Below are positions 1 to 5,264 of a stretch of DNA of 21,107 nucleotides, piece after piece. The notes under the pieces are model-generated. The model worked only from the letters and a program-made list of their open reading frames with translations. It was not told where the DNA came from and did not search any database. The translations under genes and the position numbers were made by a program. Source of the stretch: a virus; the IMG/VR virus record IMGVR_UViG_3300023238_000052, positions 1-21,107 of that record; one strand, given 5' to 3'. Each line of letters opens with the position of its first letter. The first letter of the stretch is position 1.

Positions 1-199
1 GTAGCTCTTTAAGCATAGCTTCCTTGCCATCGTGATGTACGGACTTAAAGGTTACCTTCTTTTTGCCCTGCCACTTGGCACCAAAGCACAGCATTTCGGT
101 AGGCTTGATGATTTGATTAATACCAATGTTCTGATCCCAAAGACCCCAGGTATATACTTGCATAGGAGTTGTTTCAATATCTAGCATTAGAATTTTCAT
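1..199 (-). CDS. DnaQ-like (DEDD / RNase H-fold) 3'-5' exonuclease, partial
   Basis: This gene starts at an ATG at 199 and reads open for 66 codons to the left edge, so only its N-terminus is here. The protein begins MKILMLDIETTP. The hydrophobic strand followed by D-I-E-T is the Exo I motif of the DEDD exonuclease superfamily, supplying two of the four metal-binding acids. It continues with a YTWGLWDQN segment and MLCFGAKWQGKK, which fits the second strand and loop of phage DnaQ/PolB-type exonucleases. Its likely role is proofreading or end trimming during replication or recombination, in the cytoplasm. The start overlaps the upstream stop in an ATGA (196-199), and the purine-rich AGAGAGAG just upstream can serve as a ribosome binding site. 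Exo II and Exo III, which would confirm activity, lie outside the window. The family call is strong; the exact role is inferred. Confidence 0.85.
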   Translation of the reverse strand, partial: MKILMLDIETTPMQVYTWGLWDQNIGINQIIKPTEMLCFGAKWQGKKKVTFKSVHHDGKEAMLKEL

Positions 200-486
200 T
201 TATTGTCTCTCTCTTCTATCAATTGTTCTAGCATGGCCATTTCTATGACCGCTAGTCTTGTTTTTGTTTCTGTTCCTATAACTACTACTATAGCAGGGTC
301 GGCGTTAGACTTCAAGGCATCGGTGACGGCTTTTGCCCAAACATCTTTGTTTAATGTAAAGCTTTTGCCAACCTCTTTAAAATCTATAATAAAGTTAAAC
401 CAGGATGCGTCACCCTTTTTTTGTCCTCTCCCACTGTTCTTTATTAGTTTTGCTCCGATTCTTTTACCCTCAGACTTCTCGCTCAT
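196..486 (-). CDS. Putative PD-(D/E)xK nuclease, possibly Holliday-junction-resolvase-like
   Basis: This 96-aa protein has no membrane segment. Its centre reads SGRGQKKGDA (residues 18-27), then a hydrophobic strand ending IIDFKE (33-38), then SFTL, then W50-A-K52 and a helix with A57. The order G-D26, eight residues, D35-x-K37, then a downstream Ser and a Lys-containing helix matches small PD-(D/E)xK phage nucleases, some of which are annotated as Holliday junction resolvases. This is pattern recognition, not an alignment. It sits in a recombination cluster after RecA and a zinc-finger gene and directly before a DnaQ-like exonuclease, so cutting recombination or replication intermediates is a reasonable role. 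The ATG at 486 has an AGAGGG ribosome binding site six bases upstream. Its start overlaps the zinc-finger gene by 17 bases and its stop overlaps the exonuclease start in an ATGA. Confidence 0.5.
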   Translation of the reverse strand: MSEKSEGKRIGAKLIKNSGRGQKKGDASWFNFIIDFKEVGKSFTLNKDVWAKAVTDALKSNADPAIVVVIGTETKTRLAVIEMAMLEQLIEERDNK

Positions 487-649
487 GGTCTACCCTCTTT
501 TTCCTTGTTTGTAGAGAAACTTTTGTTATGTGCTTGTTCTTACAGATCCAAGTTATATCTTTTGATTCTGGGTAAAAGCGTGAAGAGTGAGACTCTTCTT
601 TGCATTCATGACAAACAAATTTGCCATTATAAACAGAGTATTTAGCCAT
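470..649 (-). CDS. Small zinc-finger protein (59 aa)
   Basis: A short gene fills the space between recA and the nuclease-like gene. It starts at an ATG at 649, inside the last codons of recA (8-base overlap), and stops with TGA at 470-472, 17 bases inside the next gene. The protein starts MAKYSVYNGKFVCHECKEES and later reads WICKNKH. C13-x2-C16 plus C36 and H40 form a likely single zinc site. The tail is basic (TRKKRVDHEREV). Small Cys-rich proteins of this pattern (C-x-x-C, an aromatic/Pro middle, then an L/I-T-W-x-C-x-x-x-H segment) are common in phage replication clusters, but their function is not known to me. DNA or protein binding is plausible. There is no clear ribosome binding site, so translation is probably coupled to recA. 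Coding is supported by the motif and the tight fit to both neighbours. Confidence 0.75.
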   Translation of the reverse strand: MAKYSVYNGKFVCHECKEESHSSRFYPESKDITWICKNKHITKVSLQTRKKRVDHEREV

Positions 650-1655
650 TAAGCTGTTCTACCAATCTCTTTTGAAGATCTTCATCTTCTCTTACCTTTT
701 CTACAAAGGCGTCTCTACCCTGAACCTTTGAGCCATCTTCTAGCTGATACCAGGCACCAGTTCTTTCTACTAGCCCCTTCATTTCAGCGGTATCAACCAG
801 GTCTGCAATTCCATCTACGCCTACCCTGTCACCACGGAAGTAAAAGTCATATTCTCCGGACTGAAATCCTGCCGAAGTCTTAGAAAATTGAAGTTCCCAT
901 CGGATTTTTCTTCCAACCTTTTCTTCAATTAGCTTATCTCCTACAGCAATCTTGCCCTTAAGTGCTTGATTCTCAGATTCAGAGGAGAATAGCTTGATTA
1001 CGGTAGACGAATAAAACTTTGTTGCTTGTCCACCAGAAGGTTGCTGGCTTGTATACATTGCATTAATATTGTTTCTAGACTGAGAGATTAAGACAAACAA
1101 TGTTGGTTTGACCTTGTTGTTAGCATAGTTAATCATCTTCCAGGCGTTGCTAAAGTCTCTAGACTCTGCGCCAATCTGTTTTGTGTTTTCTAGCTGCTTA
1201 AGCTCATCGGTGCCCTTCTCAAAGTAAATTGCAGGTAGAAGTGATGTAATACTATCCACCACAATAATATCTACCCCTGCTTCAATAAAGGCAACACTAA
1301 CGTCTACCATTTCGTTAATTGTTCTGGCTTGTGAGTACAACAATTTTTCTGGGTCTACCCCAAGACGAACTGCCCAGTCTTCTGAATAGGACATCTCTGC
1401 ATCAATCCAGGCGCAGAGCTTCCCCTCTTTCTGTGCCATTGCAATAGTCTGTAGACATATCGAAGATTTTGCACTTGACTTGCTACCCCACACCAAAACC
1501 TGTCTACCATAGGGAAGTCCTCCATCTAAAGCCTTATTAAGTCCAAAGCTTGGGGTGGGCTGGTGACCAATGCTTATGCCCTCTCCATTTGAAACTGTTT
1601 TGCGAATTTTAGGATTAAGCTTAGCAAGAGCCTCTTCTATAGTTACGTTAGTCAA
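642..1655 (-). CDS. RecA-like recombinase
   Basis: This 337-aa protein is close to the length of bacterial RecA (about 350). RecA forms filaments on single-stranded DNA and drives strand exchange in recombination-dependent replication and repair. The core is in the expected order: P-loop at about 57-65, WIDAE (83-87, cf. RecA IDAEHA), Walker B DIIVVDS (129-135), LISQSRNN (189-196, the sensor/L1 area) and PSGGQATKFYSS (206-217, end of loop L2). The P-loop reads GSKSSAKSS: the usual second glycine of GxxxxGK[ST] is alanine, a departure reminiscent of T4 UvsX. No LexA-type partner is visible. The start is TTG at 1655, overlapping the mazG-like stop in a TTGA. An in-frame TAG lies just upstream and no ATG follows for many codons, which supports the TTG, although the ribosome binding site is weak. 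The 3' end overlaps the zinc-finger gene. Confidence 0.93.
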   Translation of the reverse strand: MTNVTIEEALAKLNPKIRKTVSNGEGISIGHQPTPSFGLNKALDGGLPYGRQVLVWGSKSSAKSSICLQTIAMAQKEGKLCAWIDAEMSYSEDWAVRLGVDPEKLLYSQARTINEMVDVSVAFIEAGVDIIVVDSITSLLPAIYFEKGTDELKQLENTKQIGAESRDFSNAWKMINYANNKVKPTLFVLISQSRNNINAMYTSQQPSGGQATKFYSSTVIKLFSSESENQALKGKIAVGDKLIEEKVGRKIRWELQFSKTSAGFQSGEYDFYFRGDRVGVDGIADLVDTAEMKGLVERTGAWYQLEDGSKVQGRDAFVEKVREDEDLQKRLVEQLNG

Positions 1656-1972
1656 AATCTAACACCGTGCCTTTCTGGTCTGGTTTTATTAAAGCTTGTT
1701 TTGTTGTTAAAAGAGGTTGTCAATGACTCTGAGACGTAGCCGCTTCTTTTAAGACCCTCATACAGGTCTAGGGTTCTAATGATTATATCAGCTAGCTCTG
1801 AAACAACTTCTGCGCTACCCTTGTCTTTTCTGATAGCCTCCATGGTTTCTGTAACCTCAGAAACAATCATCATGCATTGTTTTGCTATAAAAATGTCATC
1901 TATATTTCCATCGGGCCAAAACCCCTTTTCTTTTGCTGTCTGGTGAACCAGAGCCGCCTTTTCGTCAAACAT
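1652..1972 (-). CDS. MazG-like nucleotide pyrophosphohydrolase
   Basis: This 106-aa protein is the size of a single-domain MazG-like enzyme. These all-alpha NTP pyrophosphohydrolases cleave NTPs or dNTPs to the monophosphate and pyrophosphate using magnesium held by a four-acid site. The site is visible as E39-V-T-E42 on the first helix and E59-L-A-D62 on the second, followed by IIIRTLDLYEGL. The C-terminal NKTRPERHGVRF is a tail seen in many phage MazG-like proteins. In phage replication clusters such enzymes are thought to clean or shape the nucleotide pool or affect ppGpp; which substrate applies here cannot be read from sequence. The ATG at 1972 has an excellent GGAGG (1979-1983, six-base spacing) and overlaps the polymerase stop by 8 bases. 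The gene is cotranscribed between the polymerase and recA. Confidence 0.88.
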   Translation of the reverse strand: MFDEKAALVHQTAKEKGFWPDGNIDDIFIAKQCMMIVSEVTETMEAIRKDKGSAEVVSELADIIIRTLDLYEGLKRSGYVSESLTTSFNNKTSFNKTRPERHGVRF

Positions 1973-4900
1973 GTATATCCTCCAATATTACTGTCCCGTC
2001 TTTTGTTTTTCCGAAAGAAAACTTGTAAGCATTTCCTTCCTGAATCTTCATATATGCTTTAGCAAATGTTGTTGGAAAGACAATCACAGAATGAAAGTCT
2101 CTACTCGTATCTGCTAAAGTTAGTGTTGCCATTTTTTTACCAGCCTTGGTTATTCTAGGTCTAAAAGAAACTACAAACATCTCTTCGTCTTTGTATGGCA
2201 ACATCTTGTAGTTTAAGAATCTTATAAGCGAATCATTAGACTTTTGTGCTTCGTCTGCTGGTATTGCTGTTACGATTCTATTGTCGCTAGCAAGAAGAAT
2301 GTACGTTTTGCCAGTTTCAATCTCTGTTTGCTCTTCATCAAAGATCCCCACGGAGCCAGTCTTGTCCAAGATCTCTACACGAGACCAACCCTTGCCTCTT
2401 TTTATAGTTTTTACCATACCCATCATTAAGAACGAACCACGCTCCTCAAACTCACAAACATCACTAATAAAAGCATGATAGTGCGAAGGTACTGTAATGT
2501 TAAACTCAGGTAGGTTTAGGTACTCGTACAGGCTTTCCCTAATCTTGTCGTCGTCCCTCGGATTATCTTCAAATGTTGCAGCCCCAACAAGTCTTAGTGC
2601 GCTGAGAGCTCTAGTGTTTACACCATTACCCTTAGTGTTTGAAAACTCTTCTAGCTGAGCATAAGATCCAAAGGGCCTTGAGGATATATACTTTGAGGCA
2701 ATGTTGTCTGAAATAAATTTAATTGAAGAAAGCCCAAACCTAATCCCCTTACCTTCAATCTTAAAGTCTGCATCAGAGTCGTTTACGTGGGGCAGTCGAA
2801 TAGGAATCCCCATACGCTTAGCCTCAATCAAGTACTCAGTCCTAGCATCTTTGTCCTTCTCATTCTTTAGCATGGCAAACATAAACTCTAGTGGATAGTA
2901 ATACTTCAACCATGCCGTCCAATAAGATAGCGTAGAGTATGCAACAGCATGTGACTTGTTAAATGAATATCCAGCGTGTGCCTCAAAGTCGTGCCAGAGA
3001 TCTTTGGCTACATTCGGAGAGACGTGTCTTGATGCACCAGTAACAAACATATTCTTAAACACATCAAACTCTTTAGCATCTTTCTTCTTACCGATAATCT
3101 TACGTACCTTGTCGGCATCAGTCATTGACATTCCGGCTAGATTAACACAAGCCTGCATGACCTGCTCCTGATAAAGAACACATCCATAGGTTTCTGCTGT
3201 ATAGCCTTTCATGATTTCGTGAGTAAAAGTAATTTTTTGTTTTCCGTGCTTGCGAGCAATGTAATCTTTACCAATAGTATTCATGGCACCAGGTCTAACC
3301 AAAGCGTTAGAAGCGGCAAGCTCTGCAAAGTTTTTTACGCCCATCCTAATTAGTAGATTTGTGTATGGAGTGGCTTCACATTGAAACACACCCTTCGTAT
3401 AACCATTAGAAAGCATTTCATAAACCTTGTCATCTTCCATATCAATGGTATAAAGATCAAGGTCTTTTTTGTGTCTTTCTTTAATAATATTAGTAGTGTC
3501 TTTAATTACGCTGAGTGTTTTAAGACCTAGAGCGTCTATCTTGATGAGGCCAATTCTTTCTGCCTCCTCCATGTCCACCGCCACAACAGGAATTCGCTCT
3601 TTGTTCCCTGGAGAGGTCCTAGTCTCCATTGGAGCATATCTAAAGATTGGGTTCTTGCTAGTAACAACTCCGGCTGCGTGAATTCCCGTTCCACGAATAC
3701 GACCACGCAACTGTTCCCCGTACTTTTCAATTTCTGGGTACTTCTCTCTAAACCAAAGTGTTTGCTTAGACATACAATATTCGTCCCATGTATCTACAAG
3801 CTTAAGAACTTTGTTTACGTCTGTCAGTGGCACGTGAAGCACTCTGGCAATGTCTCTGACGACACCCTTGTCTTTAAACTGAAGGAACGTTGCAATAGAG
3901 GCAACGTGTTTGTACTGTCTAACTAAATAGTCTTTGACCTCCTCACGACGTGTATCCTGGATGTCAGTGTCGATGTCTGGGAAATCGTTTCGTTCTGGGT
4001 TAATAAAACGAAAGAACAGCAATCCATGCTCGATGGGATCTACGTCTGTAATGCCCAAAGCATAGCAAAGCAAGGACCCAGCGGCAGAACCTCGACCTGG
4101 CCCAACCATGATTCCTTCCTTCTTTGCCCAAGAAATCATAGAGCGAACAACTAGGAAGTATGGACCAAAATTTTTGTTAGAAATAACCTCTAGCTCTTCT
4201 GCTAAACGATCTAAATACTCCTGATTCTTGTCGAGTCCACGAGCAGCCAACCCCTCCAGGGCAAGAATATTAAGCTCTTTGTCTGGCTCCTTGTACTGTA
4301 CTGGAAGGAGATCTAGGTGGTCTTGAATTTCATAGTCAGAAACCTTGTCCGATATCTCTCTAGTGCTTTCGTACATGTCTTCTCGATCAATACCCTGGGC
4401 GTTCATCGCTAAGCGCATCTCTTCGTCTGACATAAGATGGATATCAAACTTTGAAAAAGTTATCTGGCGTTCGCCATAAAGGTAGTTTAACCTATCATTT
4501 AAGTTCTCATACTTTTTAGACTTTTCAAAGGTGGAATCTTTCTGAACCTTATTACTATAAGTGTTAAGAATAAGTTTTAGCTCTTGAATATCTTTTTGTC
4601 CTACGTGTGCGTGGTGACAATCTGGGGTGACCACTGGCTTTACCCCGAACTCGTCTGCCAAGGCCAACAGCTGATGGTTGATCTCCGCAGGGTTGTGAGG
4701 CATGACCTCAATATAGTAATCGTCACCGAAGACATTCTTGTGCCATTCAATCTGTTGCTTTGCTGCTGCTAGCTCTCCAGACTCAATAGCTTTTGCTACG
4801 GTACCACTAAGGCACCCAGAAGTAACAATGATTCCTTCTTTGTACTTTTCAAGTACTTCATAGTCGATCCTGGGCTTTTTGTAATAGCCTTCTGTCCAGC

Positions 4901-5264
4901 CTATTTCGTTTAGCCTGTTGAGGTTTTCTAGCCCCGTTTTGCTCTTTGCAAGTAAAACTATGTGGTTATAGACAAGATCTAAAGGGCCTTCCCTGCTACC
5001 CCGATCTCTTTGGTCAAACCTATCACTAGTGATATAAGCCTCTACGCCAAGAATTGGTTTAATGTTTTTTGCCTTTGCAGCACGATAAAATTCACGATGA
5101 CCAGAAAGGGAGCCGTGATCAGTAATCGCTATGGCATCCATCTCCAAGTCTGCGGCTCTATCGATATACTCTTCTGGTTTGGCAATGCCGTCAAATAACG
5201 AGAAGTGAGAATGTACGTGAAGGGCTACATAAGGTTTTGATGTTTTACTAATTGAGCTACCCAC
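1965..5264 (-). CDS. dnaE: DNA polymerase III alpha subunit (DnaE-like, PHP domain)
   Basis: This is a C-family replicative polymerase of 1099 aa, slightly shorter than E. coli DnaE (1160). The N-terminal PHP domain (about 11-300) keeps what look like all nine metal ligands: H16, H18, D25, H50 (ITDHG), E75 (GVEAY), H101, C151 (SGCLSG), and D215/H217. Degenerate PHP domains such as that of E. coli have lost several, so this one may proofread. The palm has GPGRGSAAGS (388-397), PDIDTD (429-434, two catalytic Asp) and KIDALGLKTL (575-584, third catalytic Asp). Tau/finger segments, a helix-hairpin-helix-like region (about 865-900) and one or two C-terminal OB folds (about 940-1000 and 1028-1099) follow. 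The start is GTG at 5264, with AGGAG (5273-5277) eight bases upstream. A large hairpin lies between it and the SSB gene. No clamp-binding motif could be assigned with confidence. Confidence 0.96.
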   Translation of the reverse strand: MGSSISKTSKPYVALHVHSHFSLFDGIAKPEEYIDRAADLEMDAIAITDHGSLSGHREFYRAAKAKNIKPILGVEAYITSDRFDQRDRGSREGPLDLVYNHIVLLAKSKTGLENLNRLNEIGWTEGYYKKPRIDYEVLEKYKEGIIVTSGCLSGTVAKAIESGELAAAKQQIEWHKNVFGDDYYIEVMPHNPAEINHQLLALADEFGVKPVVTPDCHHAHVGQKDIQELKLILNTYSNKVQKDSTFEKSKKYENLNDRLNYLYGERQITFSKFDIHLMSDEEMRLAMNAQGIDREDMYESTREISDKVSDYEIQDHLDLLPVQYKEPDKELNILALEGLAARGLDKNQEYLDRLAEELEVISNKNFGPYFLVVRSMISWAKKEGIMVGPGRGSAAGSLLCYALGITDVDPIEHGLLFFRFINPERNDFPDIDTDIQDTRREEVKDYLVRQYKHVASIATFLQFKDKGVVRDIARVLHVPLTDVNKVLKLVDTWDEYCMSKQTLWFREKYPEIEKYGEQLRGRIRGTGIHAAGVVTSKNPIFRYAPMETRTSPGNKERIPVVAVDMEEAERIGLIKIDALGLKTLSVIKDTTNIIKERHKKDLDLYTIDMEDDKVYEMLSNGYTKGVFQCEATPYTNLLIRMGVKNFAELAASNALVRPGAMNTIGKDYIARKHGKQKITFTHEIMKGYTAETYGCVLYQEQVMQACVNLAGMSMTDADKVRKIIGKKKDAKEFDVFKNMFVTGASRHVSPNVAKDLWHDFEAHAGYSFNKSHAVAYSTLSYWTAWLKYYYPLEFMFAMLKNEKDKDARTEYLIEAKRMGIPIRLPHVNDSDADFKIEGKGIRFGLSSIKFISDNIASKYISSRPFGSYAQLEEFSNTKGNGVNTRALSALRLVGAATFEDNPRDDDKIRESLYEYLNLPEFNITVPSHYHAFISDVCEFEERGSFLMMGMVKTIKRGKGWSRVEILDKTGSVGIFDEEQTEIETGKTYILLASDNRIVTAIPADEAQKSNDSLIRFLNYKMLPYKDEEMFVVSFRPRITKAGKKMATLTLADTSRDFHSVIVFPTTFAKAYMKIQEGNAYKFSFGKTKDGTVILEDIHV

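Follow-up and report, generated by a model that had tools for sequence, protein, structure and literature searches.

Computational analysis showed that a 96-amino-acid (aa) open reading frame (ORF) of a virus DNA is a real and conserved gene, which carries the residue set E3/D26/(D/E)35/K37 and holds a near-invariable place after recA in a string of replication and recombination genes. The source record is a virus fragment of 21,107 bases, and this whole stretch is referred to here as the window. We consider it probable that the gene product is a PD-(D/E)xK endonuclease of minimal size that depends on metal and acts in the manner of the archaeal enzyme Hjc.

The gene in the window and the naming of its family

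The ORF listing placed the reading frame, from ATG to TGA, at positions 486 to 196, on the minus strand. An earlier reading of the DNA, made from the sequence only, had given these positions correctly and had not named a strand. On the minus strand the genes follow each other in the order dnaE, mazG, recA, the zinc-ribbon-like gene, the nuclease gene, and the start of an exonuclease gene (Table 1), so that the nuclease lies between a RecA/zinc-finger pair and an exonuclease, as that reading had described. According to the ORF coordinates, all of these genes overlap: dnaE and mazG by 8 nt, mazG and recA by 4 nt, recA and the zinc-ribbon-like gene by 8 nt, the latter and the nuclease gene by 17 nt, and the nuclease stop and the exonuclease ATG by 4 nt. 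Neither the 59-aa zinc-ribbon-like protein nor the 66-aa exonuclease fragment had a Pfam match; the exonuclease fragment contains an LDIETTP motif that we take to be DEDD-like. The MazG-like protein scored 19.5 bits against PF03819, under the cut-off of 22. Since the source record is a fragment, any Cas4 and RuvC genes of this phage would be located beyond the window, and close relatives (e.g., loci L001 to L005) suggest that it carries both.

Table 1. Features of the window, with the overlapping homologues of Gordonia phages in the last row
Feature	Position	Strand	Basis
Predicted PD-(D/E)xK-type nuclease, 96 aa	196..486	-	PHROG 2002, 4.7e-20; model and Hjc match; conservation
E3 codon (candidate catalytic Glu of helix 1, resembling Hjc E9)	478..480	-	23/23; model helix 3-9
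Codons of the N17-S18-G19-R20 loop	427..438	-	23-sequence alignment
Codon of D26, the D of PD	409..411	-	23/23 invariant
Codons of D35-F36-K37, (D/E)xK half-motif	376..384	-	23-sequence alignment; model strand 32-39
Exonuclease gene start, cut by the window edge	2..199	-	PHROG 403, "DNA polymerase exonuclease subunit," 2.5e-19
Zinc-ribbon-like protein, 59 aa	470..649	-	Named from Cys pattern; PHROG 10952, unknown function, 5.1e-05
RecA/UvsX-like recombinase	642..1655	-	PF00154, 1.9e-33; PHROG 97, 5.9e-56
MazG-like pyrophosphohydrolase, same gene string	1652..1972	-	PHROG 3301, 3.1e-16
DnaE-like DNA polymerase III alpha, same gene string	1965..5264	-	PHROG 405, 1062.8 bits
Gordonia overlapping homologues	L084:4956-5258, L085:4956-5261, L091:1959-2252, L201:1956-2258

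The match of the window protein to PHROG 2002, "Holliday junction resolvase," aligned residues 2 to 95 with positions 22 to 119 of the 130-position profile, and four tested homologues likewise matched this entry (1.7e-08 to 1.5e-35). A tblastn search, which involved no motif, retrieved 149 phage records at E ≤ 1 (127 Streptomyces, 13 Gordonia, and 9 Rhodococcus), and a Gordonia query brought in Brevibacterium phage Cantare. All 40 of the best-matching listed phage records named the product "Holliday junction resolvase," as did 31 of 40 spread-sampled records; the other nine had a hypothetical protein (three), were without annotation (two), or were Gordonia records in which the nuclease was not named (four). 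The name given to PHROG 2002 is an annotation, and junction cleavage is putative. The family is already named in phage resources, and the window protein adds a member to it. The expectation that general annotation would call the protein hypothetical held for Pfam (E ≤ 10) and NCBIfam, neither of which gave a match for the window protein, and failed for the phage resources. The actinophage proteins of PHROG 2002, such as gp83 of Streptomyces phage Mildred21 and the protein of Rhodococcus phage Trina, are homologous over their full length. The window protein is 47.5% identical to that of Mildred21 and is the shorter, with 96 aa compared to 102 to 110 aa in seven aligned annotated phage homologues.

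Twenty-five members of the family matched eight Pfam families, from which the Hjc and VRR-Nuc profiles were absent. These matches were scattered, and we relied neither on FokI_cleav_dom (0.0024, in one of the 25 members) nor on PLA1 (0.0063 at best, in three of them). The PF01870 search gave 0/1, with the control positive in 4 of 14 genomes, and searches of PDB sequences with the protein and with the alignment returned chance matches only. At the sensitivity of the scan no bacterial copies were seen, the genome contigs giving 76 pattern matches of which none was confirmed, and viral scans with a Rhodococcus query and with a Gordonia query yielded no relative. No experimental study of the nuclease family was among the matches listed in the literature. 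The term "holliday junction resolvase" appears in gene tables of PMC8782336, and the passages of a Samistivirus-related paper that discuss RecA and RuvC do so without mention of the nuclease gene (PMC13350457).

Conserved residues and predicted fold

The motifs KGDA, IIDFKE, SFTL, and WAK, from which the nuclease had been proposed, are present in the protein, with KGD at residues 24 to 26, IIDFKE at 33 to 38, SFTL at 42 to 45, and WAK at 50 to 52, and D26, D35, and K37 had been numbered correctly. The motif string alone is weak evidence, because 2,179 of 20,000 shuffled versions of the protein also contained the pattern [PG]D-x5-20-[DE]xK. The case against chance comes from purifying selection, together with the retention of the residues in homologues that were found without motif patterns. 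Compared with three homologues, the nuclease gene had dN/dS values of 0.075, 0.092, and 0.123, with 56 to 60% of synonymous sites different. In an alignment of 23 proteins, which takes in four Gordonia versions and one Brevibacterium version as remote members, E3, S18, G19, K24, D26, and K37 were invariant, position 35 was D or E in every protein, and N17 was kept in 90% or more. The conservation anticipated for D26, D35, and K37 was thus borne out, and a conserved fourth residue, E3 on the N-terminal helix, had been missed. Together, E3, D26, D/E35, and K37 form the (P)D...(D/E)xK signature, with two or three acidic residues and a lysine. All Streptomyces, Rhodococcus, and IMG/VR sequences kept E6; the four Gordonia sequences have Ala, Val, or Ile in its place and the Brevibacterium one has Gln, and E3 is therefore the better catalytic candidate. 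E3, E6, NSGR, KGD, and DxKE were kept in 110 of 110 distinct IMG/VR proteins, an inflated figure, as motif patterns had served to retrieve those loci.

The AlphaFold2 model of the window protein, built with 41 sequences, reached a pLDDT of 86.9 and a pTM of 0.77. Its elements are a helix (3-9), a short strand (13-14), two strands (27-29 and 32-39), a helix (47-59), two further strands (63-70 and 76-80), and a last helix (83-94). D26 is placed just ahead of one strand and D35 and K37 on the next, which is the PD-(D/E)xK order. The worst window model scored 59.0, and four of the five models of a Streptomyces homologue scored 41.5 to 52.0. Where PMC1189080 defines PD-(D/E)xK proteins, the core is a four-stranded mixed sheet flanked by helices. 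Such a core is seen in the predicted model, and PD-(D/E)xK proteins head the list obtained by structure comparison with VIA. Hjc/Hje entries took ranks 1 to 7 (Z 8.5 to 7.6), led by 1gef_E with an rmsd of 2.1 over 76 residues and a Z of 8.5 that the tool's own note treats as borderline; close behind were the Cas4-type SSO0001 (Z 7.5), a splicing endonuclease (6.5), and exonucleases (6.4). For a second model (pLDDT 81.0), that of a homologue from a Streptomyces phage with about 48% identity to the window protein, 1gef again came first (Z 8.4) and Hjc/Hje filled ranks 1 to 8, although the two models are not fully independent because their alignments share members. With Hjc/Hje first for both models and no unrelated fold, the structure search supported the PD-(D/E)xK fold that the sequence-only reading had put forward.

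Other comparisons bear on how close this likeness is. Foldseek against the PDB returned nothing at E ≤ 0.001; the first three rows were tRNA-splicing endonuclease (best E, 0.068), and the Hjc rows had E values of 0.12 to 0.73 and a probability of up to 0.93. Among viral predicted structures 13 matches passed an E of 0.001, including the named Holliday junction resolvases of Rhodococcus phage Trina and Streptomyces phage Coruscant. The hhalign comparison with four Hjc sequences was not significant (probability 0.2, E 0.25; E 0.95 with a second alignment), and an unrelated RuvC control came out slightly better (0.4, E 0.15) and was not significant either. Since the Hjc profile comparison fails and the RuvC control does no worse, we do not file the nuclease as a member of the Hjc family; the model suggests that it is Hjc-like in fold and active-site layout only. 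The archaeal Hjc/Hje structures (1gef, 2wiw, 1hh1, and 1ob8) have the E...D...(D/E)xK set in common with the window protein, which differs from them in a shorter first helix, in the lack of a significant sequence or profile match, and in a D26-to-D35 spacing of 9 compared to 13 (D33 to E46) in Pfu Hjc. Model residue 3 fell on the position that we take to be that of the Hjc catalytic Glu in 1gef, 1hh1, 1ob8, and 2eo0, with the index read as entry numbering without a gap. In the Afu Hjc rows the register was one helical turn off, and E6 rather than E3 would match. Stand-alone VRR-Nuc domains are likewise small single-domain PD-(D/E)xK proteins of similar alpha-beta topology, and the part of PMC4103454 that deals with them reports that they are dimeric and cleave four-way junctions; the window protein, however, has no match to the Pfam VRR-Nuc profile.

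Surroundings of the gene in other viruses

Related-locus scans, from which the best 80 of 535 and the best 80 of 580 matches were kept, allowed the gene's surroundings to be compared. Of 177 loci carrying the gene (L001 to L080 and L092 to L188), 126 distinct ones were retained after copies with identical surrounding DNA were dropped; loci L189 to L196, which have no nuclease match, and the annotated phage loci L081 to L091 were left out of the counts. recA was found just upstream of the nuclease in all 106 distinct viral loci with enough sequence, a relative of the zinc-ribbon-like protein between the two in 110 of 123, and 113 of 117 had a Cas4-like exonuclease on the downstream side. Within 3.3 kb of the nuclease, 111 of 115 loci carried a RuvC-like gene, which in relatives is encoded some 2 kb downstream, and RuvC was present in all 13 large records searched, one of them from the query's own phage; the Mildred21 RuvC scored above the Pfam cut-off for PF02075 (24.5 versus 22.2). 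A match to the window's exonuclease fragment followed the nuclease in 36 of 118 loci, a count that a diverged exonuclease could escape. We therefore rejected the exonuclease as part of the unit and regard it as a local extra, while the RecA link is real.

The zinc-ribbon-like protein is a possible partner of the nuclease. The pattern CxxC-x15-25-C was kept in 109 of 109 distinct homologues of this protein. A conserved protein of approximately 111 aa between the nuclease and Cas4 (L081:9450-9785) had a relative in 111 of 117 loci and no Pfam match.

Annotated phages, namely Mildred21, Dorin, and Francob, share the order DnaE-MazG-RecA-nuclease-Cas4-RuvC, in which the nuclease follows RecA either directly or after as many as three small ORFs. 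The window clade is unlike these PHROG 2002 phages in that an exonuclease gene follows the nuclease. In Rhodococcus phage Dorin, a stretch of no more than 8 kb (L083:231-7999) holds an annotated endonuclease VII, the nuclease, a Cas4 exonuclease, and a RuvC-like resolvase, which gives three candidate junction nucleases by annotation. Just before the nuclease of phage Francob, an ORF of approximately 75 aa (L086:5796-6023) is annotated "PnuC-like nicotinamide riboside transporter," for which it is presumably too short.

In four Gordonia phages, UBSmoodge, GMA6, ChisanaKitsune, and DalanDe, the homologue and the 3' end of recA occupy the same DNA, with the homologue in the -1 frame (Table 1). 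It is unannotated in three of these records and a truncated hypothetical protein in that of DalanDe. Going upstream from the conserved part, the first in-frame ATG, GTG, or TTG comes at a distance of 189 to 252 nt, within recA, and all four phages have an ATC codon at 48 nt; ATC starts are rare. A script scan of three of the phages found A6C upstream of the conserved part in UBSmoodge and ChisanaKitsune and not at that place in GMA6; judged by eye, it falls outside the usual codon phase for a -1 slippery site. Gordonia phages Schomber, Kabocha, and Chidiebere and Brevibacterium phage Cantare carry the nuclease as a separate gene that has a start of its own, and this speaks against the fusion being obligatory. 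In Schomber, an unannotated stretch (L197:1546-1922) that separates recA from the nuclease resembles, on visual inspection, a portion of an HNH-type endonuclease.

Proposed function and alternative explanations

As an Hjc-like endonuclease, the protein would act as a homodimer, as Hjc and the stand-alone VRR-Nuc proteins do, and the dimer would nick branched DNA, such as four-way junctions, forks, and D-loops. The branched substrate may be supplied by the phage RecA during replication-coupled recombination, and the separate RuvC-like enzyme of the same string may share or divide the junction work. RuvC-like phage resolvases are encoded by a gene of another family (PF02075), have what we take to be an RNase H-like fold, and presumably overlap with the nuclease in substrate. 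The presence of a RuvC-like resolvase in nearly all loci makes a second junction resolvase look redundant, and with such a neighbor "the Holliday junction resolvase" is uncertain as a name for the nuclease.

The main rival to the Hjc-like junction cutter is a RecA-coupled nuclease that would nick or trim DNA where RecA is bound, at D-loops or ends, upstream of a RuvC that does the resolving. We regard it as a possible, though doubtful, account. It fits the adjacency to recA in 106 of 106 loci, the RuvC-like gene nearby in 111 of 115 and in every large record searched (with the PF02075 score of Mildred21), the annotation of Dorin with endonuclease VII, nuclease, and RuvC, and the overlap with the recA 3' end in the four Gordonia phages. 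However, the closest folds are those of dimeric junction resolvases, a Cas4-type exonuclease is already nearby in 113 of 117 loci, contact with RecA is purely putative, and the gene stands apart from recA in Schomber and Cantare. It strikes us as unlikely that the nuclease is a partner devoted to RecA, whose joints it would cut at an early stage, leaving resolution to RuvC, the Gordonia version being perhaps a RecA-nuclease frameshift fusion or the product of an ATC start.

Two further explanations concern the protein itself. The very small size and the short helix 1 and strand 1 would suit a protein that has kept the predicted fold and lost or changed its catalysis, serving RecA as a structure-specific DNA-binding accessory; yet few positions are as well conserved in remote clades as the four candidate catalytic ones, and we judge this very improbable. 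That the fold is unrelated and the motif due to chance is harder still to credit, despite the frequency of the string in shuffled proteins, the weak Foldseek E values, and an hhalign result no better than the control, as it is opposed by the independent PHROG assignment, the conserved residues, and the agreement of two models on the top structural match.

If the Hjc-like reading holds, the 96-aa protein, which in our judgment is a small PD-(D/E)xK layout, would be a simple test case for a minimal junction-cutting scaffold. The finding also raises the question of why two candidate junction nucleases, and three in Dorin by annotation, are found in one RecA-centered gene string.
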